A stretch of DNA of 64,000 bases from Parvularcula dongshanensis (GTDB taxonomy: Bacteria > Pseudomonadota > Alphaproteobacteria > Caulobacterales > Parvularculaceae): positions 248,001 through 312,000 of the forward strand of contig NZ_JACHOB010000005.1 in the NCBI RefSeq assembly GCF_014199615.1, written 5' to 3'. A program made the position numbers and the translations under genes. The notes under the pieces were generated by a model. It did no database searches. It saw nothing but the letters and a program-made list of their open reading frames with translations, and was not told where the DNA came from. Within the stretch, counting starts at the first letter, position 1, and every line of letters starts with the position of its first letter. Shown here piece by piece: positions 23,028-57,711 of this stretch.

Positions 23028-23812
23028 TGCGGCGGGCGATGCTTCCCGCCGCCCTCGCCCTCCTCGCCGCGCCCGCCTTCGCCCAGGAAGGGCCGGAGGA
23101 CCCGCCGTGGAACCAGGCCGACGACACCTACGGCGCGGACGCCATGGCGGCGGCGCGCGCGCACGTGCAGTCCCATCACGGCGGTCAGCGCTGGATGCAG
23201 GTCATGGCCGACCGCCTCGAATGGCAGTCCGGTGACGAGGAGACCGCGCTTTGGGACCTCCAGGGCTACTACGGCGGCGACCTGTCCCGCGTCTGGCTGA
23301 AGTCCGAGGGCGAGTACGGCTTCGGCGAAGATGCGGTCGAGGACGCCGAGGTGCAGCTCCTCTACGGCCGCGCGATCAGCTCGTACTTCGACCTCCAGGC
23401 GGGCGTCCGGCAAGACTTCGAGCCCGATGGACGGACCTACGCGGTCCTCGGCGTCCAGGGCCTCGTGCCCTACTTCTTCGAGCTCGACGCGGCGGCGTTC
23501 CTCTCCGACGAGGGCGACCTGAGCGCCAGGATCGAAGCGGAGTACGACATTCTTCTGACCCAGCGGCTGATCTTGCAGCCTCGCGCCGAGATCGACCTGT
23601 CCGCGAGCGAAGTTCCGGAGCGGCAGGTCGGCGAAGGCGTCGCATCGGTTAGCCTCGGCGCCCGCTTGCGCTACGAGGTGAAGCGGTCCTTCGCGCCTTA
23701 CGTCGGCGTCGAATGGTCCGTCGCGCCCGGCGAGAGCGGAGCCCGGACCGAAGCGGCGGGCGGCGAGAGCGAGGATACGAAGCTGGTGGCCGGCGTCAGG
23801 GCCTGGTTCTAG
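23027..23812 (+). CDS. copB: CopB copper-resistance outer-membrane protein
   Basis: A 261-residue beta-barrel protein of the CopB family, with signal peptide MRRAMLPAALALLAAPAFA. The SHHGGQRWMQVMADRLEWQ and SRVWLKSEGEYGFGED segments are conserved, and alternating hydrophobic strands end in an aromatic residue (Phe), as outer-membrane barrels do. Unusually it lacks the long Met/His-rich N-terminal stretch found in many CopB proteins. The start codon overlaps the copA stop. Confidence 0.93.
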   Translation: MRRAMLPAALALLAAPAFAQEGPEDPPWNQADDTYGADAMAAARAHVQSHHGGQRWMQVMADRLEWQSGDEETALWDLQGYYGGDLSRVWLKSEGEYGFGEDAVEDAEVQLLYGRAISSYFDLQAGVRQDFEPDGRTYAVLGVQGLVPYFFELDAAAFLSDEGDLSARIEAEYDILLTQRLILQPRAEIDLSASEVPERQVGEGVASVSLGARLRYEVKRSFAPYVGVEWSVAPGESGARTEAAGGESEDTKLVAGVRAWF

Positions 23813-42857: not shown

Positions 42858-44210
42858 TCACACGAAGAGGGATATGAGACAGGTGACGAGGAACCCCGTC
42901 ACGCCGATCAGCGTCGTGCAGACCGTCCAGCTTCGCAAGGTGAGCGCCTCCGATAGGCCCAGATAGCGGCTGACGAGCCAGAAGCCCGAATCGTTGACGT
43001 GGCTCGTCAGGCTCGCGCCCGAAGCGATGGCGACGACGACGAGGCCGAGCTCGGGGCCCGAGAGGCCCGCGAGCTCCGCGACCGGCGCGGTCAGGCCTGC
43101 GCCGGTGATCATCGCGACCGTGGCGGAGCCCTGTGCGATCCGTACGATCCCCGCCGAGAGGAAGGCGAAGGCGAGGACGGGCATGCCGCCGCTCATCAAG
43201 GCCTCGGCGAGGGTTCGGCCCGCGCCCGAGTCGACCAGCACCTGCTTGAAGGCGCCCCCTGCCCCGGTCACGAGGACGACGAGGCCCGCGGGTTCGAGCG
43301 CCCGGGTCATCGCCTCGCGCAGCTCGGGCGCGGGCACGCCGCGCCTGACGCCGAAGAGGCCCCAAGCGAGGAGGCAGGCGATCATGAGCGCCGTGAAGGG
43401 GTGACCGAGGAAGAGGAGGCCTTGCGCGACCGGGCCCGCCGTCCCCTCGCCCACCATGGCGGCGGTGACCGTCGCGCAGACGATCAGCGCGACCGGAGCG
43501 AAGATGACGAGCATCGCCTCCCCGAAGCCGGCAGCCTGACGGTCGGCAGGGACCGAAACCGGGGCCGCATGGGCAGGTGCGCCGGCCTCGGCGAAGGCTT
43601 TTTGCTTCTCCAAGGCGCGGCCGAGGACCGGTCCCGCGACGAAGGCGGCGGGCAGCCCTGCGAGCGCGCCGAACAGGATGACCCAGCCAAGGTCGGCGGA
43701 CAGGATCTCCGCCACGGCGATCGGTCCCGGGGTCGGCGGCACGAAGGCGTGGGTGACGGCGAGGCCTGACAGGAGGGGGATCGCGAAGCCGATCAACGGC
43801 CTTCCCGTCCGCTCGGACAGGCCGATCAGGACGGGCATCAGGATGATCAGCGCCACGTCGAAGAAGACCGGGATCGAGACGAGGAAGCCGATCAGGGTGA
43901 GCGCGGCGGGCGAACGCTCCGGTCCGAAGCGGGTGAGGAGCGTGTTCGAGATCGCGTCGACACCCCCTGAGTGCTCGAGCAGCGCGCCCATCATCGCGCC
44001 GAGGCCGACGACGACGGCGACGAAGCCGAGCGTGCCGCCCATGCCGTTCCGGACCGACTCGACCACATCGGTCGGCGTCATCCCGATCGTCAGGCCGAAG
44101 CCGAGCGAGACGAGGATCAGCGACAAGAAGGCCGGTAGCCGGACCCACAGGACGAGGACGAGGAGGGCCGCGACCGCGGCCCCCGTCACCAGGAGCGGAA
44201 AGAGGACCAC
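42858..44210 (-). CDS. Gluconate:H+ symporter (GntP family)
   Basis: A 450-residue inner-membrane permease with about twelve membrane segments. Family segments are visible: LEHSGGVDAISNTLL, PVFFDVALIILMP, HAFVPPTPGP, RIAQGSATVAM and SHVNDSGFWLV. It imports gluconate or a similar sugar acid. Start GTG 44210 is preceded by GGTAGGGAC. Only four bases separate it from the stop of the GH3-SMP30 gene, so the two are an operon and functionally linked. Confidence 0.92.
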   Translation of the reverse strand: MVLFPLLVTGAAVAALLVLVLWVRLPAFLSLILVSLGFGLTIGMTPTDVVESVRNGMGGTLGFVAVVVGLGAMMGALLEHSGGVDAISNTLLTRFGPERSPAALTLIGFLVSIPVFFDVALIILMPVLIGLSERTGRPLIGFAIPLLSGLAVTHAFVPPTPGPIAVAEILSADLGWVILFGALAGLPAAFVAGPVLGRALEKQKAFAEAGAPAHAAPVSVPADRQAAGFGEAMLVIFAPVALIVCATVTAAMVGEGTAGPVAQGLLFLGHPFTALMIACLLAWGLFGVRRGVPAPELREAMTRALEPAGLVVLVTGAGGAFKQVLVDSGAGRTLAEALMSGGMPVLAFAFLSAGIVRIAQGSATVAMITGAGLTAPVAELAGLSGPELGLVVVAIASGASLTSHVNDSGFWLVSRYLGLSEALTLRSWTVCTTLIGVTGFLVTCLISLFV

Positions 44211-44214
44211 GTCC

Positions 44215-47200
44215 CTACCCGCCGAGCTTCACCCGCGCGAGGAAGGAACCGGAGGTGATGTAGATCGCGTCCTCCGTGTCCGTCAGCGCGACGTTCGCCG
44301 CCGCCGTCCCCGTGCGGACGAGCGCGAGGCGCTCGCCTTCGGGGGAAAGAAGGTGGATGCCGCCGGGCCCTGCGAGCCAGATGTTTCCCGACTGCGAGAC
44401 CGCCATGCCGTCGGGCAGACCGGGCTCGCCTGCCTTCACCATCGCGGTCAGGTCGATCAGGACTCGCCGGTTCGTCACGTCGCCATCCTCGCCGACGTCG
44501 TAGGCGTAGAGCCTCGCGGCGTCCGGATCGGAGACCGCGACGTAAAGCGTGCGCTCGTCCGGTGAGAGGCCCACGCCGTTGGGCCGGGTCAGTTCCCGGT
44601 CGATCAGGCTCACCGTTCCGTCGGGCGAGAGGCGGTAGACACCGTTGAAGTCGAGCTCCTTGAGCTCGGACTCGTCTCCGTCCTGAAGGCCGTAGGGCGG
44701 ATCGGTGAAGTAGATCGTGCCGTCCTCCGCCCGGACGAGGTCGTTGGGGCTGGAGAACCGCTTGCCTTCGAATTGCTGCGCGAGGAACGTCCGCTCCTTG
44801 GTGCCGAGGTCGACACGCGCGATCGCGCGGTTGCCGTGATCGCCCATCAGGATGGCGTTCGGGCCGTCCGCGATCAGACCGTTCGATCCCGGTTCCCTGA
44901 AGGCGGGCGGCACCTCGCCGGCAAGGCCCGAAGGCTGCAGGACCACTTCGAGCCCGCCCTCTTCGGACCATCCGTAAAGCGTGTTGCCGGGCACGTCGCT
45001 GAAGAGGACCTCGCTGCGGTCCGGCATCCAGACCGGCCCCTCGGACCAGCCGAAGGTGTCGTCGGTCAGCTTCTCGATGGCGGCGTTCTCCGGGATGACC
45101 TCGTCCGCGCGGGGGTCCAGGCGGTCTATCGATCCCACGCTCACGGGCTCACTCTCCGCATTGCCGCCGCTGACGGTGGTCACGGTCTCGATGGCGGCGG
45201 CGGGCTCGTCCGCGGTCACGCCCTCTTCGATCGTGAAGCTGCCCTCGCCGCGGATGTCGGCGGAGGTCGAGCCTATCATCCAGCGGATCTCGCCAGCGTC
45301 GACCCGCCAGGCGCCCTCCTGCCCCCAATAGGCGAACTGCTCCGGGCGCAGCTTGAAGCTGACGGTCTTCGTCTCGCCAGGATCGAGCGAGACGCGCGAG
45401 AAGCCGCGCAACTCCTGGACGGGGCGCGCGACGGTCGCCAGCGGGTCGCGGGTGTAGAGCTGCACGACCTCGTCGGCGGCCATCTCGCCCGCGTTCGTCA
45501 CATCGGCGGAGATGGTGATCGTCCCGCCGGCGCCGACCGTCTGCGTGTCCTGCGAGATCCCGGCGTAGTCGAAGCTCGCGTAGGAAAGCCCGTGCCCGAA
45601 GGGGTAAAGCGGCGTGATGTCGACGTCCGTGTAGCGCGAGCTGTCGTTCTCGAGGTCGGGGTCCGCCGGCCGTCCCGTCGGGTAGTGGCCCATGAAGATC
45701 GGCACTTGCCCCGTTCGGCGCGGGAAGCTCGCCGGTAGGCGGCCGCCCGGGCTCTCCTCGCCGAAGAGGACGGAGGCGACGGCGGGGCCGGTCTCGACGC
45801 CGAGGAACCAGGTCTCGAGGATCGCGTCGGCCTCCGCGTCGAGCGAGGAGATGTCCAAGGGGCGCCCGTTCATCAGCACGACGACGACCGGGGTGTCGGT
45901 CGCCAGGATCGCTTCGGCCAGGGCCGCCTGCCCTGCGGGCAGCGTGATGTCCGAGCGGCTCCGCGCCTCGCCGGAGTAGTTCCAGTCCTCGCCGATGACG
46001 AGCACGGCCACGTCCGCCCGCTCCGCCGCGCGCACGGCGTCGCGCAGGTCGCGGCGGTCGGGCATGCTGCGGGCGTCGGCACCGGGGACGTAGTCGATCC
46101 GTACCCCTTCGGGCAGCGCGGCTTCGAGCCCTGCGCGGATCGTCACGACGTCGCCCGAGCTGCCCTGCGCCGACCAGGAGCCGAGCGGCGAGTAGGGATC
46201 GTCCGCCAGCGCCCCGATGAGCGCAACGCGGCCCGCCCCCTCGCGGATAGGCAGCGTCTGGTTCTCGTTCTTCAAGAGGACCATGGACTTGACCGCGGCG
46301 TCGCGGGCGACGGCACGGTGCTCTTCGGACAGCATGACCGCCGCCTCGCGGTCGGTGTCGTGATAGGCGTAGGGATCGTCGAAGAGGCCGAGACGGTCCT
46401 TGGCGAGAAGGACGTGGCCCACCGCATCGTCGAGCGACGCCTGGAGCGTCTCGTCGCCGCGCACCGCCTCGGCGAGGTCTTGGGCGTAGATGCCAGAGGT
46501 CATCTCCATGTCGACGCCGGCCTCGAGGGCGAGCGTGCCCGCCCCGACCCTGTCCGCTGCGACGCCGTGGTTCGTCAGCTCGAGGACGGCGTTCCAGTCG
46601 GAGACGACGAGGCCGTCATAGCTCCAGGCCTTGCGCAGGACGTCCTGCAGCAGGGGCGCGTTCGCCGTCGCGGGCACCCCGCCGATGTCGTTGAAGGCGA
46701 CCATGACGCTGCCCGCGCCCGCCTCCACCGTCGCGGCGTGGAAGGGCGGCAGGTAGGTCTCGTGCAGCGTGCGCTCGGAGATGTCGGCGCTGTTGTAGTC
46801 GCGGCCGCCCTCGCCCGCGCCGTAGGCGCCGAAGTGCTTGGCCGTCGCGATGATCGTGTCGGGCGCGGTCAGGTCGCGCCCCTGATAGCCGCGCACCTGC
46901 GCCGCGGCCATGCGAGCGCTCAGATAGGGCTCTTCGCCCGCCCCCTCGACGATGCGGCCCCAGCGGGGGTCGCGCGCGATGTCGATCATCGGCGCGAAGG
47001 TCCAGTGCAGCCCCGCCGCCGAAGCCTCTTCGGCCGCGATCCGCGCGGTCGACTGGCCGACTTCGTCAGAGAAGCTCGCGGCGAGCGCGAGGGGGACGGG
47101 GTAGATCGTACGGTAGCCGTGGATCACGTCCATCGCGAAGAGGAGCGGGATGCCGGTCCGGCTCTCTTCGACCGCCGTGCGTTGCAGCTCTTCGAGCGGG

Positions 47201-47511
47201 CCCGCGCCCGCGACGTGCAGGTAGGAGCCGACCTTGCCCTGGCGGACGCGGTCGAACTCGCCGTCGTCCAGGCGGGAGTTGAGGTTCTTCTGACGCCCGC
47301 CCGCCATCTGATGGAGCTGGCCGAGCTTCTCCTCGATCGTCATGTTCGAGATCAGGAAGTCGATGCGCTCCTGCCCGGTAAGGCCCTGCGCCGTCGCCTG
47401 GACGGCGAGCGTCTGCGCGTCCTGTTCGTTCTGGGCTTGGGTGAAACCGCTGCCGAGCGCGGCGAGGCTCAAGCCCGCAGCGAGTGCCGCGAGCCGGTGA
47501 CGGTGAAGCAT
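44215..47511 (-). CDS. GH3 beta-glucosidase fused to SMP-30/gluconolactonase domain
   Basis: A 1098-residue exported two-enzyme fusion. After a signal peptide (AALAAGLSLAALGSGFTQA), residues 45-760 are a full GH3 beta-glucosidase of the BglX type. The nucleophile is Asp305 in VVSDWNAV, KHFGAYGAGEGGRDY is present, and a fibronectin-like tail includes PFGHGLSYASF. A linker at about 762-800 leads to a six-bladed SMP-30/gluconolactonase domain (about 805-1098) with likely metal ligands Glu824 (SEGPVW), Asn978 (RPNGV) and Asp1034 (LPDGM). Neither half looks damaged. GntP follows immediately, so the natural product is probably gluconate. The fusion is unusual; GH3 and SMP-30 are normally separate proteins. 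Confidence 0.93.
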   Translation of the reverse strand: MLHRHRLAALAAGLSLAALGSGFTQAQNEQDAQTLAVQATAQGLTGQERIDFLISNMTIEEKLGQLHQMAGGRQKNLNSRLDDGEFDRVRQGKVGSYLHVAGAGPLEELQRTAVEESRTGIPLLFAMDVIHGYRTIYPVPLALAASFSDEVGQSTARIAAEEASAAGLHWTFAPMIDIARDPRWGRIVEGAGEEPYLSARMAAAQVRGYQGRDLTAPDTIIATAKHFGAYGAGEGGRDYNSADISERTLHETYLPPFHAATVEAGAGSVMVAFNDIGGVPATANAPLLQDVLRKAWSYDGLVVSDWNAVLELTNHGVAADRVGAGTLALEAGVDMEMTSGIYAQDLAEAVRGDETLQASLDDAVGHVLLAKDRLGLFDDPYAYHDTDREAAVMLSEEHRAVARDAAVKSMVLLKNENQTLPIREGAGRVALIGALADDPYSPLGSWSAQGSSGDVVTIRAGLEAALPEGVRIDYVPGADARSMPDRRDLRDAVRAAERADVAVLVIGEDWNYSGEARSRSDITLPAGQAALAEAILATDTPVVVVLMNGRPLDISSLDAEADAILETWFLGVETGPAVASVLFGEESPGGRLPASFPRRTGQVPIFMGHYPTGRPADPDLENDSSRYTDVDITPLYPFGHGLSYASFDYAGISQDTQTVGAGGTITISADVTNAGEMAADEVVQLYTRDPLATVARPVQELRGFSRVSLDPGETKTVSFKLRPEQFAYWGQEGAWRVDAGEIRWMIGSTSADIRGEGSFTIEEGVTADEPAAAIETVTTVSGGNAESEPVSVGSIDRLDPRADEVIPENAAIEKLTDDTFGWSEGPVWMPDRSEVLFSDVPGNTLYGWSEEGGLEVVLQPSGLAGEVPPAFREPGSNGLIADGPNAILMGDHGNRAIARVDLGTKERTFLAQQFEGKRFSSPNDLVRAEDGTIYFTDPPYGLQDGDESELKELDFNGVYRLSPDGTVSLIDRELTRPNGVGLSPDERTLYVAVSDPDAARLYAYDVGEDGDVTNRRVLIDLTAMVKAGEPGLPDGMAVSQSGNIWLAGPGGIHLLSPEGERLALVRTGTAAANVALTDTEDAIYITSGSFLARVKLGG

Positions 47512-47573
47512 GAGTGGTTCCCTTCCCTGTCTCTTCCTAACCTGCCGCGCGCTTCTTCGTCGCTTTCGGCGTC

Positions 47574-49958
47574 CTATTCCATCTCGAGCCGCACGTCGGA
47601 GACACGCAGGGTCAGCCGCCCAGCGGTCTTGATGAAGAGCGGCGCTCTCGTCTCGGCGAGATCCCCCTCGCGCAGGCCGGACCCGGAGAGGGGAAGCAAG
47701 AGCCGGACCCAGCCCTGCCCCGCCGCGCCCCGCAGCCGGTCCGTCACGTCCCCGGCGCCTTCGCCCGAGGCCGTCAGTACGCCCATGCGGACGGGCGCGC
47801 CCGGCGCCTCGCGGACCTCGCAGTGAACGGCGACCATCAGGCGGCCGTTCGCCTCCCGCGTGAGGTCCTGGCCCGGACCTTCGAGAACGAAGCGTGCAGG
47901 GCCAGTGAAGGTCAGTTCGCGCGCGTCCTCCTGCGCCGCCCGGTCGACGGAGCGGACGGACAGCGCGCCGTCCGTCGTCTTGGCAGCGGGGCCGGTCAGT
48001 AGGACGTCCTCGCCCTGCGACGAGAGCACGATCTTGTAGGGCGGGCGGGCACGGCCAGCGCGCAGGTACTCCGTCCCGCCGCGCGCGTTGGCCGCGTCGC
48101 GGCCGCTCTCGTCGAGCCGCGCGAGCGCGCCGTCATCGGCGTAGGTGAGGCCGAAACCGTAGGCGAAGAGCGGATCGCCATCGCCTTCACCGGCGTTGAG
48201 AGGCGTCTGATGCGGGTGCCTCGGCCAGGAGAACGAGAGCTTGCCCGCGAAGTCGCGGCGGGGCCGTCCGTCCGCGTCGCCGACCAGCACGTCCGCCACC
48301 CCGCCGCCCTCGCTTCCCGGCAGCCAGGCGGCGACGAAGGCGTTCGAGGCGTTGATCTCCGGGTTCAGGTGAAGAGGCCGGCCCGACAGGAAGACGGAGA
48401 CCGTAGGGATGCCGTCGGCCCGAAGGCGCTTCAGGAGCGCGAGCGGGGCGTCGTCGGTGAAGTCGAGGTTCTCGCGGTCGCCCTGGAACTCGGCATAGGG
48501 CTCCTCGCCGAAGACGACGATGGCGACGTCGGGGCGGGTCTCGGTGCGTCCGTCTTCGGAGAGCTCAGGCGTGCCGCCGCCCGCCTCGACGGCCTCCCGC
48601 AGGCCGTCCCAGATCGACTGGCCGTTCGGGAAGCGGTCGTTCGTGTTCCCCTCCCCCTGCCAGGTCAGGGTCCAGCCGCCGCAGGCTTTCTGGATCGAAG
48701 CCGCGTCGCCCGCGACGAGGACCCGTGCGGACGGCTTGATCGGGAGGACACCGTCGTTCTTCAGGAGGACGAGGGACTTGGCGACGGCTTCGCGCGCGAC
48801 GGCTCTGTGCGCGGCGCGGCCGGGAACGCTCCCGTTCCCCGCGCCGGGCCGTTCCGTCGGGCGCGGCCTGTCCCAGAGGCCGTAGCGCAGCTTGACCCGC
48901 AGGACCCGGCGGACAGCATCGTCTATGCGCGCCTCGGCGATCTCTCCTTCGCGGACCTGCTCCAGCGTGTTGCGGAAGAGCGCGCGCCAGTCGTCGGGCG
49001 CCATGATCACGTCGACGCCCGCTTCGTAGGCGGCCGGGCAGCTGTCATTGCGGCAGCCCTCGACCCCGGCATGGCCGTTCCAGTCGCCGATGACGACGCC
49101 GTCGAAGCCCATGCGGCCCTTCAGGACCTCGGTCAGCAAGTAGCGGTGGCCGTGGAGGCGCTCGCCGTGCCAGCTGTTGAAGCTCGCCATGATCGTCTGG
49201 ACGCCCGCTTCGATCGCGGGCGGGTAGCCCGCGGCGTGGACCTCGCGCAGGGTCGCCTCGTCGCAGAGCGTGTCGCCCTGGTCCTTGCCGCCCTCGGTGC
49301 CCCCGTCGCCGACGAAGTGCTTGGCGGTCGCGATCAGGCCGTGGCCGCGAAGGAATCCTTCCGTGCCCGCCGCGCCCTGTAGCCCCTCGACCATGGCAGC
49401 GGCGTAGTCGCGTACGATGCGCGGATCTTCCGAGTAGCCCTCATAGGTCCGCCCCCAGCGGTCGTCGCGCGGCGTCGCGAGGGTCGGCGCGAAGGTCCAG
49501 TCCATGCCGCAGGCCTGGACCTCGCGCGCGGTGACCTCGCCGATGCGGCGGATGAGGCCCGGGTCGTCCGCGCAGCCGAGGCCGATGTTGTGGGGGAAGA
49601 TCGTCGCGCCGACGAGGTTGTTGTGCCCGTGGACCGCGTCCGTACCCCAGAGGATCGGCACCTTCGTCCCCCCGCGCCGAAGGGCCGCCTGATGGAACGC
49701 GTCGACCGTCTCGAGCCACGCTTCGAGGCCCGCATAGTTGTCGCCGCCAGGGGCGGAGTTCCCGCCGCAAAGGACAGAGCCAAGCGGCACCTCGAGGAGG
49801 TCGTCCGGCACGATCGAGGCAAGGTCGGCCTGGATCGTCTGGCCGACCTTCTCCTCGAGCGTCATCCCGGCGAGAAGCGCGTCGATGCGCGCCTCGACCG
49901 CCTCGTCCCTGCCGGGACGAGGGCTCAGCTCCGGCCAGTCCTCGGGGCGGCGCTCCAT
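47574..49958 (-). CDS. GH3 glycosidase without signal peptide
   Basis: A 794-residue GH3 enzyme with the same motif order as the lipoprotein GH3 at 40019 (GTDAVHGH, FPHNIGLG, KHFVGDGGTEGG, nucleophile aspartate in IGDWNGHAG) and the same C-terminal beta domain. It begins directly with ERRPEDWPELSPRPG and has no signal peptide, so it probably acts in the cytoplasm on imported oligosaccharides. It starts one base after the aldo/keto reductase stop. Specificity may be beta-glucoside or beta-mannoside; the mannan context makes either possible. Confidence 0.9.
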   Translation of the reverse strand: MERRPEDWPELSPRPGRDEAVEARIDALLAGMTLEEKVGQTIQADLASIVPDDLLEVPLGSVLCGGNSAPGGDNYAGLEAWLETVDAFHQAALRRGGTKVPILWGTDAVHGHNNLVGATIFPHNIGLGCADDPGLIRRIGEVTAREVQACGMDWTFAPTLATPRDDRWGRTYEGYSEDPRIVRDYAAAMVEGLQGAAGTEGFLRGHGLIATAKHFVGDGGTEGGKDQGDTLCDEATLREVHAAGYPPAIEAGVQTIMASFNSWHGERLHGHRYLLTEVLKGRMGFDGVVIGDWNGHAGVEGCRNDSCPAAYEAGVDVIMAPDDWRALFRNTLEQVREGEIAEARIDDAVRRVLRVKLRYGLWDRPRPTERPGAGNGSVPGRAAHRAVAREAVAKSLVLLKNDGVLPIKPSARVLVAGDAASIQKACGGWTLTWQGEGNTNDRFPNGQSIWDGLREAVEAGGGTPELSEDGRTETRPDVAIVVFGEEPYAEFQGDRENLDFTDDAPLALLKRLRADGIPTVSVFLSGRPLHLNPEINASNAFVAAWLPGSEGGGVADVLVGDADGRPRRDFAGKLSFSWPRHPHQTPLNAGEGDGDPLFAYGFGLTYADDGALARLDESGRDAANARGGTEYLRAGRARPPYKIVLSSQGEDVLLTGPAAKTTDGALSVRSVDRAAQEDARELTFTGPARFVLEGPGQDLTREANGRLMVAVHCEVREAPGAPVRMGVLTASGEGAGDVTDRLRGAAGQGWVRLLLPLSGSGLREGDLAETRAPLFIKTAGRLTLRVSDVRLEME

Positions 49959-49959
49959 C

Positions 49960-50808
49960 TCACGGCAGCCTTTCGCCCAGAGACGCTTCGAGGACCTCGT
50001 ACCACTGCCGGCGGGTGAGCTTGAGCTCGCTCGCGCGTGCAGCGTCGCGCAGGCGCTCTTCCTTCGTGGTCCCGATGATCGGCACGACGCCGGAGGGGTG
50101 GGCGAGCAGGAAGGACAAAGACGCGGCAGAGACGCTGATCCCCGCCTCGTTCGCCAGGCGTTCGAGGACGGGGCGCACCCGCGCCGCGCGCTCGCCCTCG
50201 CCGGTCGGCACGCGCCCGCCGCCCAAGGGAGACCAGGCGAAGAGGTCGAGGCCCATCGCCATCGCCTGATCCGCGGTCCCGTCGTAGAGGGGGGCGGGCT
50301 CTAGGACCGAGAACTCGACCTGCTGCGCGGTCAGCGGCGCCTTCAGATGTGCCTTCAGCGCACGGACCTGCTCTACCGTGTAGTTCGAGACGCCCACCCG
50401 GCCGACCTTGCCCGAGGAGACGAGTCCGTCGAGGGCGTCTGCGACCTCGGCCGGATGCGCGAGGAAGTCGGGGCGGTGGACGTAGAAGAGGTCGACGCGC
50501 TCCGCCTTCATGCGGCGCAGGGACTCGTCGCACGCACGGGTCAGGTAGTCCTTCGAGTTGTTGTAGGGCGTGCCGAACTCGACGCCCGCCTTGGTCGCGA
50601 CCTCGAGCCCGTCGAGGAAGCGGGGGTCGCGATCTCTGATCTCGCCGAGCAGGACCTCCGCCGCGCCGAACTCGCCGCCGCCATAGACGTCCGCCGTGTC
50701 GAGGTGGGTGATGCCGAGCGAGCGGGCGGTGTCGACCATCCGCATGGCCGTCTCGGCCTCGCCGGGACCGTAGCGCCAGAAGCCGTAGGCGAGCGTGTGC
50801 TTGGTCAT
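49960..50808 (-). CDS. Aldo/keto reductase
   Basis: A 282-residue NAD(P)H-dependent oxidoreductase of the AKR superfamily. The catalytic tetrad is readable: Asp in THLDTADVYGGG, Tyr in the same motif, Lys in VATKAGVEF, and His in VHRPDFLAH. The C-terminal NADP site is in PIIGTTKEERL. The ATG 50806-50808 overlaps the upstream epimerase stop by four bases. It sits in the mannan operon; a role in reducing a sugar intermediate is plausible, but the substrate is unknown. Confidence 0.9.
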   Translation of the reverse strand: MTKHTLAYGFWRYGPGEAETAMRMVDTARSLGITHLDTADVYGGGEFGAAEVLLGEIRDRDPRFLDGLEVATKAGVEFGTPYNNSKDYLTRACDESLRRMKAERVDLFYVHRPDFLAHPAEVADALDGLVSSGKVGRVGVSNYTVEQVRALKAHLKAPLTAQQVEFSVLEPAPLYDGTADQAMAMGLDLFAWSPLGGGRVPTGEGERAARVRPVLERLANEAGISVSAASLSFLLAHPSGVVPIIGTTKEERLRDAARASELKLTRRQWYEVLEASLGERLP

Positions 50809-51992
50809 GTCGTCTCCTTCAGGCGGCGGATCATCTCCATCATCGCCCGTCCGTTGTGGTAGGGCCCCTTCCAGAACCCTGACTTGTAAGGACCGCGCGC
50901 GGGCAGGTCGGCGCGAGAGAACCAGCCCCACTCGCCGTGCTCGGGGTCGATGACCTCCGCCCGGATGAAGTCCCAGAGGCCCGCGGCCGTGTCGCGATAC
51001 TTCGCCTCGCCGCTCAACGCATAGGCGTTCTCGAAGCCGACCATGGCCTCGGCCTGGACCCACCAATGGCGTTCGCCGACGGACGTGCCGTCCTCGTGCC
51101 GTTCGTAGGCGAGGCCCCCACCCTGCGTGTAGGCCGTCAGCGCGGCGTCGGCGGTTCTGATCGCAAGCGTTTCGGCGCGCGACAGCCGCGCTTGGTCGCC
51201 GAGCGCGACGGCGGCCTCGTGGAGGAGCCAGCTCGCCTCGATCCCGTGCCCGTAGCTCTCCCCACCGCCCTGGTCGTTCCAATCGTCGTCGTAGAAGAGC
51301 GCGAGGTGGCCGTCGTCCCGTGCGCCCGAGAAGCGGTCCGCGAAGAGGTCGATGCTGTCCGCGAGGACGCCCGCCGTGAACTCGCTGCGACAAAGTGCGT
51401 GAAGCGCCGTGTACCCCTCCAGCACGTGAAGGTGCGTGTTCATCGTCTTGGGTGCGTTCATGTCCTTCGCGCTGAGGCGCTGATCGGGGATCGCCGACCA
51501 GTCCTGCGCGAACGCTTCGAGGTAGCCGCCCTTGGCGCGGTCGACCGTGCGCTCCTCGAGGAGGCGCGCGAGCGTCAGCGCCTCTTCCTTCGCGGCCTCG
51601 TCCTCGAACGCCGCCGCATAGGCCGAGAGCGCGTAGATCGCGAAGGCCTGGGCGTAGGTCTGCTTGCGGGTCTCGGACGGCGTGCCGTCCGCGTCCAGCG
51701 CCCAGAAGACGCCGCCGTGATCCCGATCGAAGAAGGGGGCGAAGCCTCGGCGCGTCGCGTGCGCCGCTTCGGCCGCCTTCGGATCGTCCCTGAACCCTGC
51801 GAGGGCCGAGAAGAACCAAAGGGCGCGCGCGTGCTGGACCGAGCCGCGCGGGGCGCTCTTGTCGGGGCGGTTCTGGTCGTCGACGGCGCCGTGGAGCCGT
51901 CCCTCGGCATCCATACCGTGCGCGATCCACCAGTCGCGGATCTGGTCCAGCTCCGCCTCGAAGGCGGCAGGCGTGTAGGCGTGGTTCGTCAC
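50805..51992 (-). CDS. AGE-family cellobiose/mannobiose 2-epimerase
   Basis: A 395-residue (alpha/alpha)6-barrel protein of the AGE family. The segments [36 protein letters not shown] and KGPYHNGR match cellobiose 2-epimerases rather than the N-acylglucosamine enzymes. It would convert beta-1,4-mannobiose to 4-O-beta-D-mannosyl-D-glucose in the cytoplasm. This is exactly the substrate of the GH130 phosphorylase that overlaps its start by four bases. Confidence 0.88.
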
Positions 51993-53167
51993 GCCCGTTC
52001 CATCAGAGCCAGATTGCCCTTCGCAAGGGCGACGCGTTGCTGCACGGAGGCGCCGGAGGTGAGCGGGTCCTCGGGCGTGTTCTTCACGTAGTCGAGGAGG
52101 CGCGAAATGTCCGTCGTCGCGACGTGCATCCGCGTGTCGGACGAGCCGTAGTAGATGAAGACGCGGCCGTCGGGCTCTGCGATCCAGCCATTGGTGAAGA
52201 CGACGTTCGAGACGTCCCCGACCCGCTCTTCGCCCTCGGGCACGATCAGGGCGCCCGCCGGGCGGTGGGTCACGCGCCAGGGCTCGCCCAGCGCGGTCAT
52301 GAACATGTAGCAGGTGTAGCGCAGGCCCGCGGCGGTGTTGCGGACGCCGTGCGCGAGGTGGAGCCAGCCTTCCTCGGTCTTGATCGGCGCCGGCCCCTGC
52401 CCGTTCTTGGTCTCTTTGATCGTGTGGTAGACGCGGGGGTCCACGATGTTCTCCTCGCCCACCGTCGCGCTTTCGAGGTCGTCGGTCAGGCCGTAGGCGA
52501 TACCGCCCCCCGACCCTGCGTCGATGAAGCCGTCCTGCGGGCGCGTGTAGAGCATGTACCGTCCGTCCACGAACTCAGGGTGGAGGACGACGTTGCGCTG
52601 CTGCGAGGAACGGGTCTTGAGGTCGGGCAGGCGTTCCCAGGTCGCAAGGTCCTTCGTCCGCACGATGCCCGCCGCCGCGACCGCCGCCGTGGGGTCCGAA
52701 GGCTTCGCGTCGTCGTGCCGCTCGGCGCAGAAGATGCCGTAGACCCAGCCGTCCTCGTGGCGCGTCAGCCGCATGTCGTAGACGTTGGTGGTCGGCGCCC
52801 CCGCCTCGGGCAGCTCGAGCGGCAGGTCGCGGAAGCGGAAGCCCTCCGTAGCCGTATCGCTCTCGGCGATCGCGAAGAAGCTCTTCCGGTCCGCACCCTC
52901 GAGCCGGACGACGAGGCAGTACTTGTCCCCCCACTTGATCGCGCCCGCGTTGAAGGCGGCGTTCACGCCCATCCGCTCCATCAGGTGCGGGTTCGTTCGG
53001 CGGTCGAAGTCGTAGCGCCAATGGAGCGGCGCGTGGGCGGCGGTCACGACCGGGTTGCGCCAGCGCTCGTAGATCCCGTTGCCGGGCAGGACGGCTGCGT
53101 TCCGCCTGGTGATCAGCGCCTCGTGCTCGGCCCTAAGGGCCTGCATGCGGGTGTCGAAACTGGTCAT
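51989..53167 (-). CDS. GH130 4-O-beta-D-mannosyl-D-glucose phosphorylase
   Basis: A 392-residue five-bladed propeller enzyme that phosphorolyses beta-1,4-mannosyl-glucose to mannose-1-phosphate and glucose. Typical segments are [32 protein letters not shown] (in parts), [32 protein letters not shown] and [12 protein letters not shown]. They place it with the mannosylglucose phosphorylases (GH130 subfamily 1 type). No signal peptide, so cytoplasmic. Coupled by overlap with the epimerase and 39 bases after the symporter gene. Confidence 0.9.
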
Positions 53168-53206
53168 GATCTCGTCCGTAGGAGGGAGAAGAAGGGAAAG
53201 AAAAGC

Positions 53207-55120
53207 TCAGAGCGCAGCGCCCGCGCCCTGGGGGACGGCGGGGCCGCTGGCCTTCGCCTCGGCGGCCGCCTCGCTCACGTCGTCGGGGTAGTCCTTCAGC
53301 CTGTCGTACCAGGTGAACTTGAAGACGACCGTGAGAGCGACCGCGAGCAGGAGCGCCATCCACATCATCGCCATCTCGCCGATGACGAGGAAGACCGGCA
53401 CGGCGACGAGCGAGGTCTGCCAGACGATGCCGAGCCCGACGTTCATCATGTCGATGCCGAAGTCGCGGTTGGGCTCGACGGCACGGCCCTCCGCCTCTTC
53501 GAGCGCACGGTGGACCGGCCCCCAGAAGCCCCAAGGCCGCGTGCGGCGGTAGAACTCGACGAGTGCGGGCATCTCGGTCGGCGGGGTCATCAGCGTGCCC
53601 GCGATGCTGGCGGCGGTCGTGATCGCGAGCATGATCGGGAAGAACTGCCACGGGTCGAGCGCGGCAACACCCCCAAGGCCCAAACTCTCGCCGATGGGCA
53701 GGAGAAGCGCGGTGATCACGCCCGACGCCATGCCCCAGAAGTAGCCGAAGCCGTTGAAGCGCCACCAATACCATTTGAGGACGTTCGCCGCGGCGTAACC
53801 GCCGTAGAGCGCGGAGACGAGCCAGTCGATGATGGAGGAGAGGTCCGGCACGAAGAGGCCGATCGCCGTGCCGAGAACGACGAAGACGGTCGCCGTGATG
53901 ACCGACAAGCGGACGTAGTGCTTCTCCGTCTCGTCGGGCTTCAGGTAGCGGCGGTAGACGTCGTTGACGACGTAGGCGGGCGCCGCGTTCACCGCCGCCG
54001 CGAAGGACGACATGAAGGCCGCGAGGAGCCCCGCGATCAGGACGCCGAGGAGGCCGACGGGCACGAACTCCCGCATCGCGAAGGGCAGGATCAGCTCGAA
54101 GTCCACGTCCTCGCCCATGCCGCGCAGTTCGGGCGCGAAGTAGACGAGCGCGAGAACGGAAAGCCCCGCGATCAGCAGGTAGCGCGGCGGGTTGAGAACG
54201 ATCGAGACGAGGCCCGACATCATCGCCGCCTCTCGCGGGGTCCGCGCCGACAGGATGCGCTGCATGTCGTAGTTGGGCGCAGGACCCGCCGCCGAGACGA
54301 AGACGCCCTTCACGAGGATCATCAGGAAGAAGAAGGTGAAGAGCGAGTAGCCGTCGCCCGCGATCTTCCCGTCCGCCGCGGGCAGGATGTTCGACCAGTC
54401 GAGGTCCAGCCTCCAGCCGAAGAAGGGGTTCGTCCACCCTTCGGGCACGGCCGCGGCGAGCATGTCGGGACTGACCGCCTCGATCGCGATCCAGGCGATG
54501 ACCACGCAGGCGACCGTCATGATGAAGAACTGCATCACCTCGGTGATGACGACACTCATCATTCCGCCCTTGACGACGTAGAGCGAGGTAATCGCGACCA
54601 CGATCAGCCCCCAGAGGGTCGCATCCACGTTCGGGTCGGCGGAGAGGTGGATCGGCAGGAAGGTCGCCGCGAACTTGCCGATGCCGATGAAGCTGTAGGC
54701 GAGGTAGGCGAGCACGACGACGAGCGCGAAGGCGACCACGACGAGGTGGCTGAGCCGCGCGCCCCGCCCCTCGCCGAAGCGGAAGGTGATCCACTCCGCC
54801 CCCGTCACGACGCCCGACCGGCGCAGCCACATCGACAGGAACATCATCAGGAAGATCTGGTTGAAGACCGGCCAGAGCCAGGGAATCCAGACGCTCTTCA
54901 GTCCGTAGACGAAGAGGAGGTAGACGAGCCACATCGTGCCGGAGATGTCGAACATGCCCGAGGCGTTCGAAAGGCCGAGCGCGTACCAGGGCAGCTTGTT
55001 GCCGCCGAGGAAGTAGTTGCGCGTGCTCTTGGACGCCGCCCGGCTGAAGACGACGCCTATGCCGACCGACAGCACGAAGTAGGCGATAATGATCGCAAGG
55101 TCGATCGTCGTGACGCCCAT
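53207..55120 (-). CDS. Na+/solute symporter of the SSS family
   Basis: A 637-residue inner-membrane symporter with about 14 membrane segments. It starts MGVTTIDLAIIIAYFVLSVG and has the SSS signature regions NASGMFDISGT and GLLAAFMSSFAAAVN. It is longer than most sugar SSS members, with a C-terminal membrane segment and an alanine-rich tail. Its place between GH5 and GH130/epimerase makes mannobiose or short manno-oligosaccharides the likely substrate. Confidence 0.9.
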   Translation of the reverse strand: MGVTTIDLAIIIAYFVLSVGIGVVFSRAASKSTRNYFLGGNKLPWYALGLSNASGMFDISGTMWLVYLLFVYGLKSVWIPWLWPVFNQIFLMMFLSMWLRRSGVVTGAEWITFRFGEGRGARLSHLVVVAFALVVVLAYLAYSFIGIGKFAATFLPIHLSADPNVDATLWGLIVVAITSLYVVKGGMMSVVITEVMQFFIMTVACVVIAWIAIEAVSPDMLAAAVPEGWTNPFFGWRLDLDWSNILPAADGKIAGDGYSLFTFFFLMILVKGVFVSAAGPAPNYDMQRILSARTPREAAMMSGLVSIVLNPPRYLLIAGLSVLALVYFAPELRGMGEDVDFELILPFAMREFVPVGLLGVLIAGLLAAFMSSFAAAVNAAPAYVVNDVYRRYLKPDETEKHYVRLSVITATVFVVLGTAIGLFVPDLSSIIDWLVSALYGGYAAANVLKWYWWRFNGFGYFWGMASGVITALLLPIGESLGLGGVAALDPWQFFPIMLAITTAASIAGTLMTPPTEMPALVEFYRRTRPWGFWGPVHRALEEAEGRAVEPNRDFGIDMMNVGLGIVWQTSLVAVPVFLVIGEMAMMWMALLLAVALTVVFKFTWYDRLKDYPDDVSEAAAEAKASGPAVPQGAGAAL

Positions 55121-55192
55121 CGGTGTTCCCTTCCCTGCCCGCGGCCCTGACCGCTTGTAAGTATCACGGCGAGGTTCGCCCCCGCTCTTTCG

Positions 55193-56536
55193 TTACTGCG
55201 CGGAGATCGCCTCCGCATGGTCCTCGATGATCGCGAGCGTCGCCTCGTCCACGTCGAAGACGGAGTTGCGTCCCTGCGGCTCTTGCGGCGGGTCGCCCGT
55301 GTAGCTCGTGTCGCCCGGCTGCCACTCGCCGTCCGCGTGCTGCGCCCGGCCGTAGCCGCCCCAGGCCCAGAGGTTCGTGCCGACGAGCGGGCCGCCCGAC
55401 GCCGCGCTTCGCTCGACGCGGTCGTAGACGGCGCGGAGCAGGCGGTCGCGGTGCGGGCTCGGACTGCCGGGGGTCAGTACCTCGTCGGCGCGGTCGAGAC
55501 CGAACTCCTCGAGGACGATCGGTTTGCCGAGCTCCTCGGCCAGCGCGATGTGCTGGTCGATGTAGGCGCCGACCTGAGCCATCGCGCCGTCGATCGTCCC
55601 GTCCGCATCCATCGGATCGAACCAGGACCAGTTGCGCGGCCACATGTGGAAGGTCGCGTAGTCGATCGCATCGCCGTCATGGGCGCCCGTGAAGCAGAAT
55701 GCCGAGCCGTTGCAGCCCATCATCCCTTCATTGCCGGTCGAGACGAGGTGGTTCCGGTCGAGCGACTTGATGAAGCGGGCCGTCTCATCGATCCAGGCGT
55801 GGAAGGCGGCCATCTCCGCGTTGCCCTGCGCCGCGTCGGGATCGGGCCGCGGCTCGTTCGCGAGTTGCCAGGCCATGATCGCCGGGTCGTCGACGTAAGG
55901 GGTGCCGGTCACCGAGTTGGTCCGGGTCACGACGGCCTCGGCGTAGTCGCGGAAGAGCGCGTTCGCCTCGTCGTTGGAATAGAAGTCCGCCACGAAGTTC
56001 GGGAAGGCCGGCCACGGATAGGCCGGGTCGCCGAGGTCGATATACTCGCCGCCATTGACGTAGGACAGGTAGGTGCCCATCCCGCCGGACCACTCCCAGA
56101 AGTTGTTCAGGTAGATGACGGCGGTCATTCCGCGCTCGCCGATCTCGGCGAGGGCGGTGTCGAGGCCTTCGAGCAGGGTCTCGTCGTAGTCGCCGCTCTC
56201 GTCCCGGAAGGTGACCTTCAATGACTTGCCGAAGGGAGAGGTCTCCGAGGCGCCGAGGATGCGCAGGTTGGTGACGCCCAGCGCCTTCAACCGGTCGAGT
56301 TCGCGTCCGAGCCGCTCGCGGTCGCCGTATGGCGCGTCCGCGCCGAGATAGGCGGCGTACCACATGTTGACGCCGACATAGGGGTAGGCCTCGCCGTCGC
56401 GGATGAAGCTCATGTCGTCGACTTCGACGAAGCCGGGATCAGCCTCCGCCTGCTCGTCCCCCTGCCCGCCCGCGGCGCAGCCCGCCAGGAGCGCAACCGC
56501 GCATGCCAGGAGCGGCAGGATAGACAGACGTTTCAT
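55193..56536 (-). CDS. GH5 endo-beta-1,4-mannanase-like lipoprotein
   Basis: A 447-residue lipoprotein (lipobox LAGC, Cys20) with a GH5_7-like mannanase barrel. The acid/base glutamate is Glu228 in WQLANEPRP and the nucleophile is one of Glu343/344 in VLEEFGLD; YPYVGVNMWY at the start and YVGVN-like strand are typical. I start at ATG 56536 because GAGGGG lies seven bases ahead; the GTG two codons up is the alternative. It would cut (gluco)mannan at the cell surface and feed the symporter. Confidence 0.9.
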   Translation of the reverse strand: MKRLSILPLLACAVALLAGCAAGGQGDEQAEADPGFVEVDDMSFIRDGEAYPYVGVNMWYAAYLGADAPYGDRERLGRELDRLKALGVTNLRILGASETSPFGKSLKVTFRDESGDYDETLLEGLDTALAEIGERGMTAVIYLNNFWEWSGGMGTYLSYVNGGEYIDLGDPAYPWPAFPNFVADFYSNDEANALFRDYAEAVVTRTNSVTGTPYVDDPAIMAWQLANEPRPDPDAAQGNAEMAAFHAWIDETARFIKSLDRNHLVSTGNEGMMGCNGSAFCFTGAHDGDAIDYATFHMWPRNWSWFDPMDADGTIDGAMAQVGAYIDQHIALAEELGKPIVLEEFGLDRADEVLTPGSPSPHRDRLLRAVYDRVERSAASGGPLVGTNLWAWGGYGRAQHADGEWQPGDTSYTGDPPQEPQGRNSVFDVDEATLAIIEDHAEAISAQ

Positions 56537-56652
56537 GAGCACCCCTCGCTTGGTGGAAGCTGCTTACAGGCAATCCGTAGCGCAGGTCGAGCGTTCGGGC
56601 GGACTCGTCCCAAATGAGGACAACGGCGCCCGCTTCCCCTACCCGCCCCTCC

Positions 56653-57711
56653 CTACTCGGCGACGCGGAACCTGAACTCCGTGGTGCTCTCGTAGAGCTC
56701 TCCCGGTCGCAAGGCGGTGTCCGGGAAGCCAGGTTGGTTGGGGCTATCGGGGAAAGCCTGGGTCTCGAGGCAGACCCCGGTGCGCCAGCCCAGCGTTCGG
56801 CCTTTCCCGTGCGACGTGCCGTCGAAGTGGTTGCCGGAGTAGAACTGGATGCCCGGCTCGGTCGTGTGGACTTCGAGCACGCGGCCGCTCGCCGGGTCCG
56901 ACAGAACGCCAGCGAGCCGCAGGCCGCTTCCTGACAGGACCAGGTTGTGGTCGTAGCCGCCCGCAAGGCGGAGCTGCTCGTCCTCCGCATCGATCCGGTC
57001 AGCGATCCCCGTCGGCTCTCGAAAGTCGAAGGGCGTTCCGTCGACCGAGCGGACCTCGCCGGTCGGGATCGCCGTCTCGTCGATCGGCGTGAAGGCGTCC
57101 GCGGCCAGCCGCAGCACCTGCGCCATCGGATCGCCGGCCCCGCCCGTCAGGTCGAAGTAGCTGTGCTGAGTCAGGGCGACGGGCGTCGGCGCGTCGGTCT
57201 CGGCACGGTAGTGGACCACGAGCGTGTCGTCCTCGCGCAACAGGTAGGTGACCTGGACCTGCAACGTGCCGGGAAAGCCTTCTTCCCCGTCGGGGCTCAC
57301 GTAACGCAGGATCAACTTCGGACCCGCCTCGCCCTCGCGGGCTTCGGCCTCCCAGACGCGCTTGTCGAAGCCGCGCGCCCCGCCGTGAAGCGTGTTCGGC
57401 GGGTCGTTCGTCTCGAGCGTGTAGGCGTGTCCGTCCAAACTGAAGCGCCCGCCCGCGATCCTGTTCGCGTAACGGCCGATCAGCGCGCCGAGGAAGGCGG
57501 TGTTCGCCTCGTAGGCCGCTAGGTCGTCGAGGCCGAGGACCACGTCGGCGAAGTGACCGGCCCGCCCCCTCGCCGTCAACGCGGTGATCGTGCCCCCGTA
57601 GTCGAGCACGGACATCTGCATGCCGGTCGCGCCCGTCAGGGTGAAGCAGGTGACCGCCTCGCCCGTCTGCGTCGTGCCGTAGGCCGTTCGTTCGATACCG
57701 CTCGCGGACAT
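56653..57711 (-). CDS. galM: Aldose 1-epimerase
   Basis: A 352-residue mutarotase interconverting anomers of aldohexoses. NRIAGGRFSLDG, LHGGARGFDKRVW and TQHSYFDLTG hold the catalytic histidines, and the general-base glutamate is in CLETQAFPD near the C-terminus. No signal peptide. It is the first gene of the co-directional block leading through the mannan genes, 116 bases upstream of GH5. Confidence 0.95.
   Translation of the reverse strand: MSASGIERTAYGTTQTGEAVTCFTLTGATGMQMSVLDYGGTITALTARGRAGHFADVVLGLDDLAAYEANTAFLGALIGRYANRIAGGRFSLDGHAYTLETNDPPNTLHGGARGFDKRVWEAEAREGEAGPKLILRYVSPDGEEGFPGTLQVQVTYLLREDDTLVVHYRAETDAPTPVALTQHSYFDLTGGAGDPMAQVLRLAADAFTPIDETAIPTGEVRSVDGTPFDFREPTGIADRIDAEDEQLRLAGGYDHNLVLSGSGLRLAGVLSDPASGRVLEVHTTEPGIQFYSGNHFDGTSHGKGRTLGWRTGVCLETQAFPDSPNQPGFPDTALRPGELYESTTEFRFRVAE

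Follow-up and report, generated by a model that had tools for sequence, protein, structure and literature searches.

A predicted exported protein of Parvularcula dongshanensis (Alphaproteobacteria; Caulobacterales) carries a GH3 beta-glucosidase half and an SGL (SMP-30/gluconolactonase) half on one chain, and a gene for a GntP-family permease follows its own. The stretch analyzed (hereafter, the window) is 64,000 nucleotides (nt) of NCBI RefSeq assembly GCF_014199615.1 (contig NZ_JACHOB010000005.1, positions 248,001 to 312,000, forward strand). Here, we report that each chain of the fusion holds two complete domains, that glucosidase, lactonase, and GntP form a conserved, repeatedly fused unit and not a one-off, and that the fusions do not form one clade. 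The protein is probably an exported bifunctional BglX-type beta-glucosidase and aldonolactonase working in a periplasmic oxidative glucose route.

As we picture this route, the GH3 half would act in the periplasm, cleaving glucose from cello- or gluco-oligosaccharides; there, an oxidoreductase encoded elsewhere in the genome would oxidize the glucose, or the reducing end of an oligosaccharide, to a lactone; alternatively, cellobiose may be oxidized first, with GH3 then releasing the gluconate unit. Using a bound divalent metal, the SGL half would open the lactone; GntP would import the gluconate, and gluconokinase and Edd would feed it into the Entner-Doudoroff pathway. Fusion would keep the lactonase beside the glucosidase and would replace the lipid anchor that many stand-alone versions appear to have. 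It is puzzling that the glucosidase, rather than the enzyme producing the lactone, is the fusion partner of the lactonase.

The fusion protein and its two halves

The fusion and the permease comprise the following features (window coordinates).

44215..47511, minus strand: GH3-SGL fusion protein, 1,098 amino acids (aa), ATG start (open reading frame [ORF] plus Pfam/NCBIfam profiles)
47434..47511, minus strand: probable signal peptide, residues 1-26 (N terminus read by eye)
46408..47340, minus strand: GH3 N-terminal domain, residues 58-368, with nucleophile position D305 (Pfam, above cut-off)
45580..46284, minus strand: GH3 C-terminal domain, residues 410-644, holding E515 (Pfam, above cut-off)
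45262..45471, minus strand: Fn3-like domain, residues 681-750 (Pfam, above cut-off)
45145..45165, minus strand: short linker joining both halves, residues 783-789, predicted local distance difference test (pLDDT) score below 50 (AlphaFold2 model)
44248..45048, minus strand: SGL domain, residues 822-1088, with E824, N923, N978, and D1034 (Pfam, alignment, model)
42858..44210, minus strand: GntP-family permease, 450 aa, beginning 4 nt after the fusion stop (ORF, Pfam, TIGR00791)

A first-pass annotation, made from the letters of the window alone, had described an exported 1,098-residue protein with a complete GH3 enzyme (Asp305), a complete SMP-30 propeller with plausible ligands (Glu824, Asn978, and Asp1034), and GntP four bases downstream. 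This description holds: the ORF is present, with its exported status read by eye from the N terminus; both GH3 Pfam domains and the SGL domain lie above cut-off; D305 occupies the nucleophile position; and the GntP frame starts 4 nt past the stop of the fusion. Both halves are complete by profile and alignment, with predicted catalytic or metal-binding residues on one chain.

The GH3 half passes the BglX equivalog NF011678 (NCBIfam; 708.6 bits against a cut-off of 666), and its closest solved structures are BglX-type beta-glucosidases. In the GH3 alignment, D305 aligns with the Asp of 3u48 (the equivalent residue is Asn in chain 3u4a), and E515, which we take to be the GH3 acid/base position, aligns with the Glu of the matching motif in 3u48. 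By these comparisons, the GH3 half is a BglX-type beta-glucosidase with its catalytic positions kept, for which glucoside hydrolysis is predicted.

The SGL domain scores 151.4 bits against PF08450 (gathering cut-off, 26.3), and the solved structure closest to it in sequence is 3dr2, an exported gluconolactonase of Xanthomonas. E824, N978, and D1034 occupy the metal-ligand positions of the alignment, with N923 as a conserved fourth Asn, and all four are invariant in 18/18 aligned lactonase domains; in Caulobacter xylonolactonase, the equivalent Glu, Asn, and Asp are reported to bind the metal, while a further conserved Asn does not (PMC9795676). Modeled alone with AlphaFold2, the lactonase domain reached a mean pLDDT of 95.1 and a predicted template modeling (pTM) score of 0.93, and Foldseek placed this model closest to gluconolactonases 3e5z and 3dr2 (TM score, 0.82 to 0.89); on the model, the SGL half has the SMP-30/gluconolactonase propeller fold. 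The full-length model, built from 25 rows (mean pLDDT, 78.1; pTM, 0.58), was uneven (about 95 pLDDT in the lactonase half, low in parts of the GH3 half), so that the arrangement of the two halves cannot be read from it. The permease passes TIGR00791 (NCBIfam; 398.2 bits against 292.75).

Recurrence and origin of the fusion

The first-pass annotation had proposed a search for the same domain order, and that search found it elsewhere. When 299 genomes of the order were queried with the whole protein (up to two candidates scored per genome), full-length fusions were present in the genome of the window and in five others (G114, G025, G279, G284, and G089; 57 to 71% identity). An assembly error is very unlikely, because the full-length fusion is found in 5 of the other 298 genomes. 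The genomes are mutually related, and none of the genome and locus counts given here and below are independent.

Apart from the genome of the window, no further fusion was found among 385 class genomes (lactonase profile, E value of 1e-60 or better), of which 25 had a match, own included, and the largest other open frame was 621 aa; nor was one found among 398 phylum genomes (whole protein, 1e-180 or better; 21 with a match). From a collection of named genomes, a pattern-based scan, non-exhaustive and liable to omit near relatives, returned 69 lactonase relatives (30 to 51% identical), none with the GH3 half of the window or GntP in the fetched flanks (E value, 1e-15). Four long lactonase ORFs (L245, 1,336 aa; L246, 1,183 aa; L204, 752 aa; L227, 698 aa) were considered as fusions and dropped, as their first 400 residues, when read, resembled chance open frames.

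Gene linkage extends beyond the fusions. Matches of at least 850 bits in the 299 genomes, own included, make up a close GH3 set of 38, of which 30 have a same-strand lactonase no more than 2 kb away; it is fused in 6 and separate in 24, and GntP comes next in 18 of the 24 separate pairs; the next 23 GH3 rows, below 850 bits, have a lactonase neighbor in no case. Seen from the lactonase (76 matches in the order), 75 fetched loci, the window excluded, were mapped by the same distance and strand rule: GH3 was found in 29, GntP in 29 (plus the window itself), and a relative of glucose-fructose oxidoreductase (GFOR) or aldose-aldose oxidoreductase (AAOR) in 10. In another order of the class, G893 carries GH3, GntP, and lactonase consecutively, G1007 has GH3 and GntP with no lactonase, and the loci of G540 and G932 have GH3 with neither.

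A single clade of all six fusions was rejected by both trees, that of the lactonase (38 of 76 rows; approximately unbiased test, p-AU of 4.9e-9) and that of GH3 (33 rows; p-AU of 5.6e-6), which speaks against a single origin; the G089 fusion stands apart from the others in both trees. Grouping of the window-genus and G279/G284 fusions, which may stem from one event or two, gave a p-AU of 0.425 with free copy L113 included and 0.0007 for the five fused rows alone, and the free lactonase of G109 is nested within the fused clade. The trees imply at least two fusion events, unless one fusion split again repeatedly; several fusions would be the simpler account, since a signal peptide would have to be acquired anew after every split. 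In L109, L111, and L112, the separate ORFs, counted from the first start codon, abut gaplessly in one frame, so losing one stop codon would nearly create a fusion.

The closest free-standing lactonase (73% identity) is that of G109 (L113, 9251-10282; L179, 4185-5372). It lies near KDG kinase-like, ManD mannonate dehydratase, GFOR, and GH115-like genes, and the fused GH3 and GntP have no match in the fetched L113 and L179 stretches; this lactonase may therefore have a role in uronate use as well.

Among 66 stand-alone lactonase ORFs, 42 match a lipobox pattern (own pattern, first 70 residues), which suggests that many stand-alone lactonases are anchored lipoproteins; the fusion lacks this signal internally.

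Why the lactonase should be joined to a glucosidase admits a bolder reading, the boldest we draw, because gluconolactone inhibits beta-glucosidases, a lactonase has been proposed to relieve that inhibition, and GH3 relatives have been crystallized with gluconolactone (5xxm and 4zob, by their structure titles). Tentatively, the lactonase may serve mainly to clear gluconolactone near the GH3 site, with the gluconate flow as a by-product. The protein could then be a self-protecting beta-glucosidase, having arisen, on these trees, at least twice through fusion of neighboring genes, in which one chain destroys its own inhibitor while the cell makes that inhibitor in the same compartment. The inhibition is described as well established, and a lactonase as expected to relieve it (PMC3268779). 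All six fusions are to GH3 without forming one clade, and in the 13 lactonase loci with an oxidoreductase within 3 kb (of 76 matches), the lactonase ORF measures 338 to 394 aa and is therefore not fused to the oxidoreductase. However, inhibition of this particular protein is a prediction, the adjacency of GntP and gluconokinase also fits plain carbon flow, and abutting genes can fuse by stop codon loss without selection. Inhibitor clearance is compatible with the oxidative glucose route and differs from it in the reason given for the fusion.

Source and fate of the lactone

The first-pass annotation, finding no oxidase in the window, had looked to a lytic polysaccharide monooxygenase (LPMO), a cellobiose-oxidizing enzyme, or a periplasmic glucose dehydrogenase as the source of the lactone. 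A candidate periplasmic oxidase does exist outside the window, and the LPMO part of the proposal is not supported. We infer that the best candidate partner in this genome is a GFOR homologue at G000:C1:121281-122486 (63% identity to the query, 549 bits), whose closest solved relatives are GFOR 1h6a (329.7 bits) and AAOR 5a02 (280 bits) and which has, by eye, an RR motif near its start (twin-arginine N terminus). A second GFOR/AAOR-like gene lies at G000:C1:416260-417408 (41%, 279.6 bits).

Co-occurrence across the order agrees with such a partner. With presence of GFOR/AAOR set at an E value of 1e-75 or better, the lactonase is present in 33/34 of the 299 genomes that have the oxidoreductase versus 38/265 that do not (Fisher p of 6e-23, overstated because the genomes are related). 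In G124 and G104, a GFOR-like gene with an RR N terminus lies directly upstream of the GH3-lactonase pair, and the best solved matches of the G124 protein are Zymomonas GFOR (347.6 bits) and then Caulobacter AAOR (286.6 bits). The neighbor at L212, the one compared among the ten loci with the lactonase directly beside a GFOR/AAOR relative, aligns over its full length with Caulobacter AAOR of known structure (769 bits). The Caulobacter enzyme reportedly also oxidizes cello-oligosaccharides. In Caulobacter crescentus, a gluconolactonase-AAOR operon, CC1224-CC1226, is predicted, with CC1224 beside AAOR CC1225, and the 2015 report calls the role of AAOR unclear (PMC4628093); GFOR is reported to yield lactobionic acid from lactose (PMC4565883).

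Further genes were sought in an 18-genome panel, own genome included, of which 17 genomes carry the GH3-lactonase set. LPMO was rejected as the lactone source, since AA10 LPMO (LPMO_10, PF03067) was found in 0/18, own included. The membrane pyrroloquinoline quinone (PQQ) glucose dehydrogenase, another suggested source, has no match in the genome of the window.

Downstream of the lactonase, the panel favors gluconate. Gluconokinase (TIGR01313) is above cut-off in 12/18 genomes, own included, and lies directly beside the set in 6/18 (G124, G104, G279, G284, G030, and G155), three of these six being checked as proteins. The gluconokinase of the window's genome is on the same contig, about 265 kb distant (118 bits; cut-off, 113.75); that genome also has a strong Edd (961.5 bits). 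An IlvD/Edd-family gene lies upstream of the lactonase on the same strand at L217, L234, L238, L240, and L241, and the L234 gene, the one of the five scanned, is a true Edd. Gluconokinase adjacency together with Edd thus favors gluconate as the product. The layout that the first-pass annotation had read as glycosidase, lactonase, and importer acting in sequence gains from the conserved, repeatedly fused linkage and from gluconokinase in several genomes, and loses its LPMO source. FGGY kinase-like matches occur upstream of lactonase-AAOR, on the same strand, at L190-L193, L197, L201, L208, L212, and L214; an FGGY kinase beside such Caulobacter-like loci was considered as a gluconokinase and rejected, the L191 copy being glycerol kinase GlpK.

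Gluconokinase adjacency also bears on an unlikely alternative, in which the lactone would derive from a pentose (xylono- or arabinono-lactone) and would enter a non-phosphorylative pentonate route. Genes for an IlvD-type dehydratase, a fumarylacetoacetate (FAA) hydrolase, and/or an aldehyde dehydrogenase do lie near the set in G284, G124, G104, G046, and G140, xylose and GH115 genes occur in the window as well, and GntP of Pseudomonas taiwanensis is reported to transport D-xylonate too (PMC11252243). Against it, gluconokinase directly adjoins the set in the six genomes named, the xylose genes of the window are xylose isomerase and xylulokinase, which belong to the other xylose route, and the GH3 half is above the BglX cut-off and far under the beta-xylosidase cut-offs. 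It is very improbable that the propeller is another SMP-30 superfamily hydrolase or a noncatalytic module. That superfamily is broad, and the SGL half of a Deinococcus superoxide dismutase (SOD) reportedly hardly acts on gluconolactone and acts on 2-coumaranone (PMC12362111), but the domain here is nearest by sequence and fold to gluconolactonases 3dr2 and 3e5z, its metal ligands are invariant in 18/18, and GntP, gluconokinase, and aldose oxidoreductases recur as its neighbors.

Several observations, besides the shared ancestry of the genomes counted, weigh against the periplasmic oxidative glucose route. As to import, the permease is below the single-transporter cut-offs (best, PRK10472, 388.8 against 625 bits); only the broad-subfamily cut-off is passed, so its gluconate specificity is a prediction. 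GntP directly follows just 4/6 fusions, being about 7.6 kb on in G284 and not found in the 20 kb fetched for G279. As to linkage, 8/38 close GH3s lack an adjacent lactonase (G169, G066, G091, G141, G101, G211, G161, and G288); G169 is a contig end, and G066, G091, G141, G101, and G161 have a lactonase elsewhere, beside a GFOR/AAOR relative. GH3, GntP, and GFOR/AAOR are all absent within 2 kb on the same strand at 26/75 lactonase loci, as they are at L245 and L246, which were counted as fused only via their long chance frames. The IlvD-type, FAA hydrolase, and aldehyde dehydrogenase neighbors suggest other aldonates in some genomes. As to the oxidase, the GFOR gene is on a different contig from the fusion, and GFOR above 400 bits was not found in 6/18 panel genomes (G030, G089, G155, G070, G113, and G188), of which G089 carries a fusion; in G279, also a fusion carrier, a membrane PQQ dehydrogenase scores above cut-off (926 bits). 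The window's genome itself holds three genes with strong matches to the sugar dehydrogenase-like profile PF07995, and these are rival candidates for the oxidase.

G000:C1:653598-654578: sugar dehydrogenase-like gene (PF07995 profile)
G000:C7:34388-35374: sugar dehydrogenase-like gene (PF07995 profile)
G000:C1:977949-978935: sugar dehydrogenase-like gene (PF07995 profile)

Neighborhood and relation to known systems

The fusion and GntP stand at the downstream end of a nine-gene run on one strand (42858-57711, minus), ordered as aldose epimerase, GH5-like, sodium:solute symporter, GH130, cellobiose 2-epimerase-like, aldo/keto reductase, GH3, GH3-SGL, and GntP, which looks like a putative mannan/glucomannan-use operon. 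Its members upstream of the fusion include the following.

47574..49958, minus strand: second GH3 with Exop_C domain, directly upstream of the fusion (Pfam)
49960..50808, minus strand: aldo/keto reductase (Pfam)
50805..51992, minus strand: GlcNAc 2-epimerase family protein; the best NCBIfam match is cellobiose 2-epimerase, under its cut-off (Pfam/NCBIfam)
51989..53167, minus strand: GH130 phosphorylase family protein (Pfam)
53207..55120, minus strand: sodium:solute symporter family protein (Pfam)

A relative of the aldo/keto reductase (44%) is also upstream of the fusion in G025. Elsewhere in the window, a TrwC relaxase with helicase domains (61089-63998, plus), close to the contig end, suggests a mobile element beside the sugar locus, and a copper resistance pair, multicopper oxidase then CopB, occupies 21060-23812 (plus).

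In a fold search, the whole GH3 half was like BglX of Pseudomonas aeruginosa (6r5i), Bacteroides thetaiotaomicron (5xxl), and metagenomic JMB19063 (3u48), at 39 to 42% identity; those chains (733 to 775 residues) end near the lactonase start, whereas the fusion has about 310 residues more. The exported gluconolactonase XC5397 of Xanthomonas campestris (3dr2) has the propeller and metal-ligand positions in common with the SGL half, but it is a separate protein, while the lactonase here is the C-terminal half of a glucosidase. C. crescentus CC1224-CC1225 is like the ten loci with the lactonase directly beside a GFOR/AAOR relative; the CC1224 lactonase is separate and beside its oxidoreductase, whereas here the partner of the lactonase is GH3 and the oxidoreductase is encoded elsewhere. 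In the GFOR-gluconolactonase route of Zymomonas mobilis, glucose is oxidized in the periplasm to the lactone, which a lactonase opens for gluconate use, and the Zymomonas GFOR is similar in sequence to the homologue in the window's genome; we know of no glucosidase fusion in that route. The SOD-lactonase DRA0202 of Deinococcus radiodurans likewise has its SGL propeller C-terminal to another enzyme, and its operon is reported to include a predicted glucose dehydrogenase, but its partner is SOD and it is described as having little gluconolactonase activity (PMC12362111).

Each part belongs to a known family. Among the matches listed from open-licence papers, none described a GH3-lactonase fusion, its recurrence, or the extended gene set, an absence that is not proof. 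The fusion would physically link a polysaccharide-degrading enzyme to aldonolactone metabolism, and it may give the periplasmic aldose oxidoreductases of this bacterial group a physiological context. It raises the questions of whether the glucose of cellobiose enters these bacteria as gluconate and whether the benefit of removing an inhibitor can drive glycosidase-lactonase fusion; a gluconolactone-tolerant glucosidase would also be of interest to biomass conversion.

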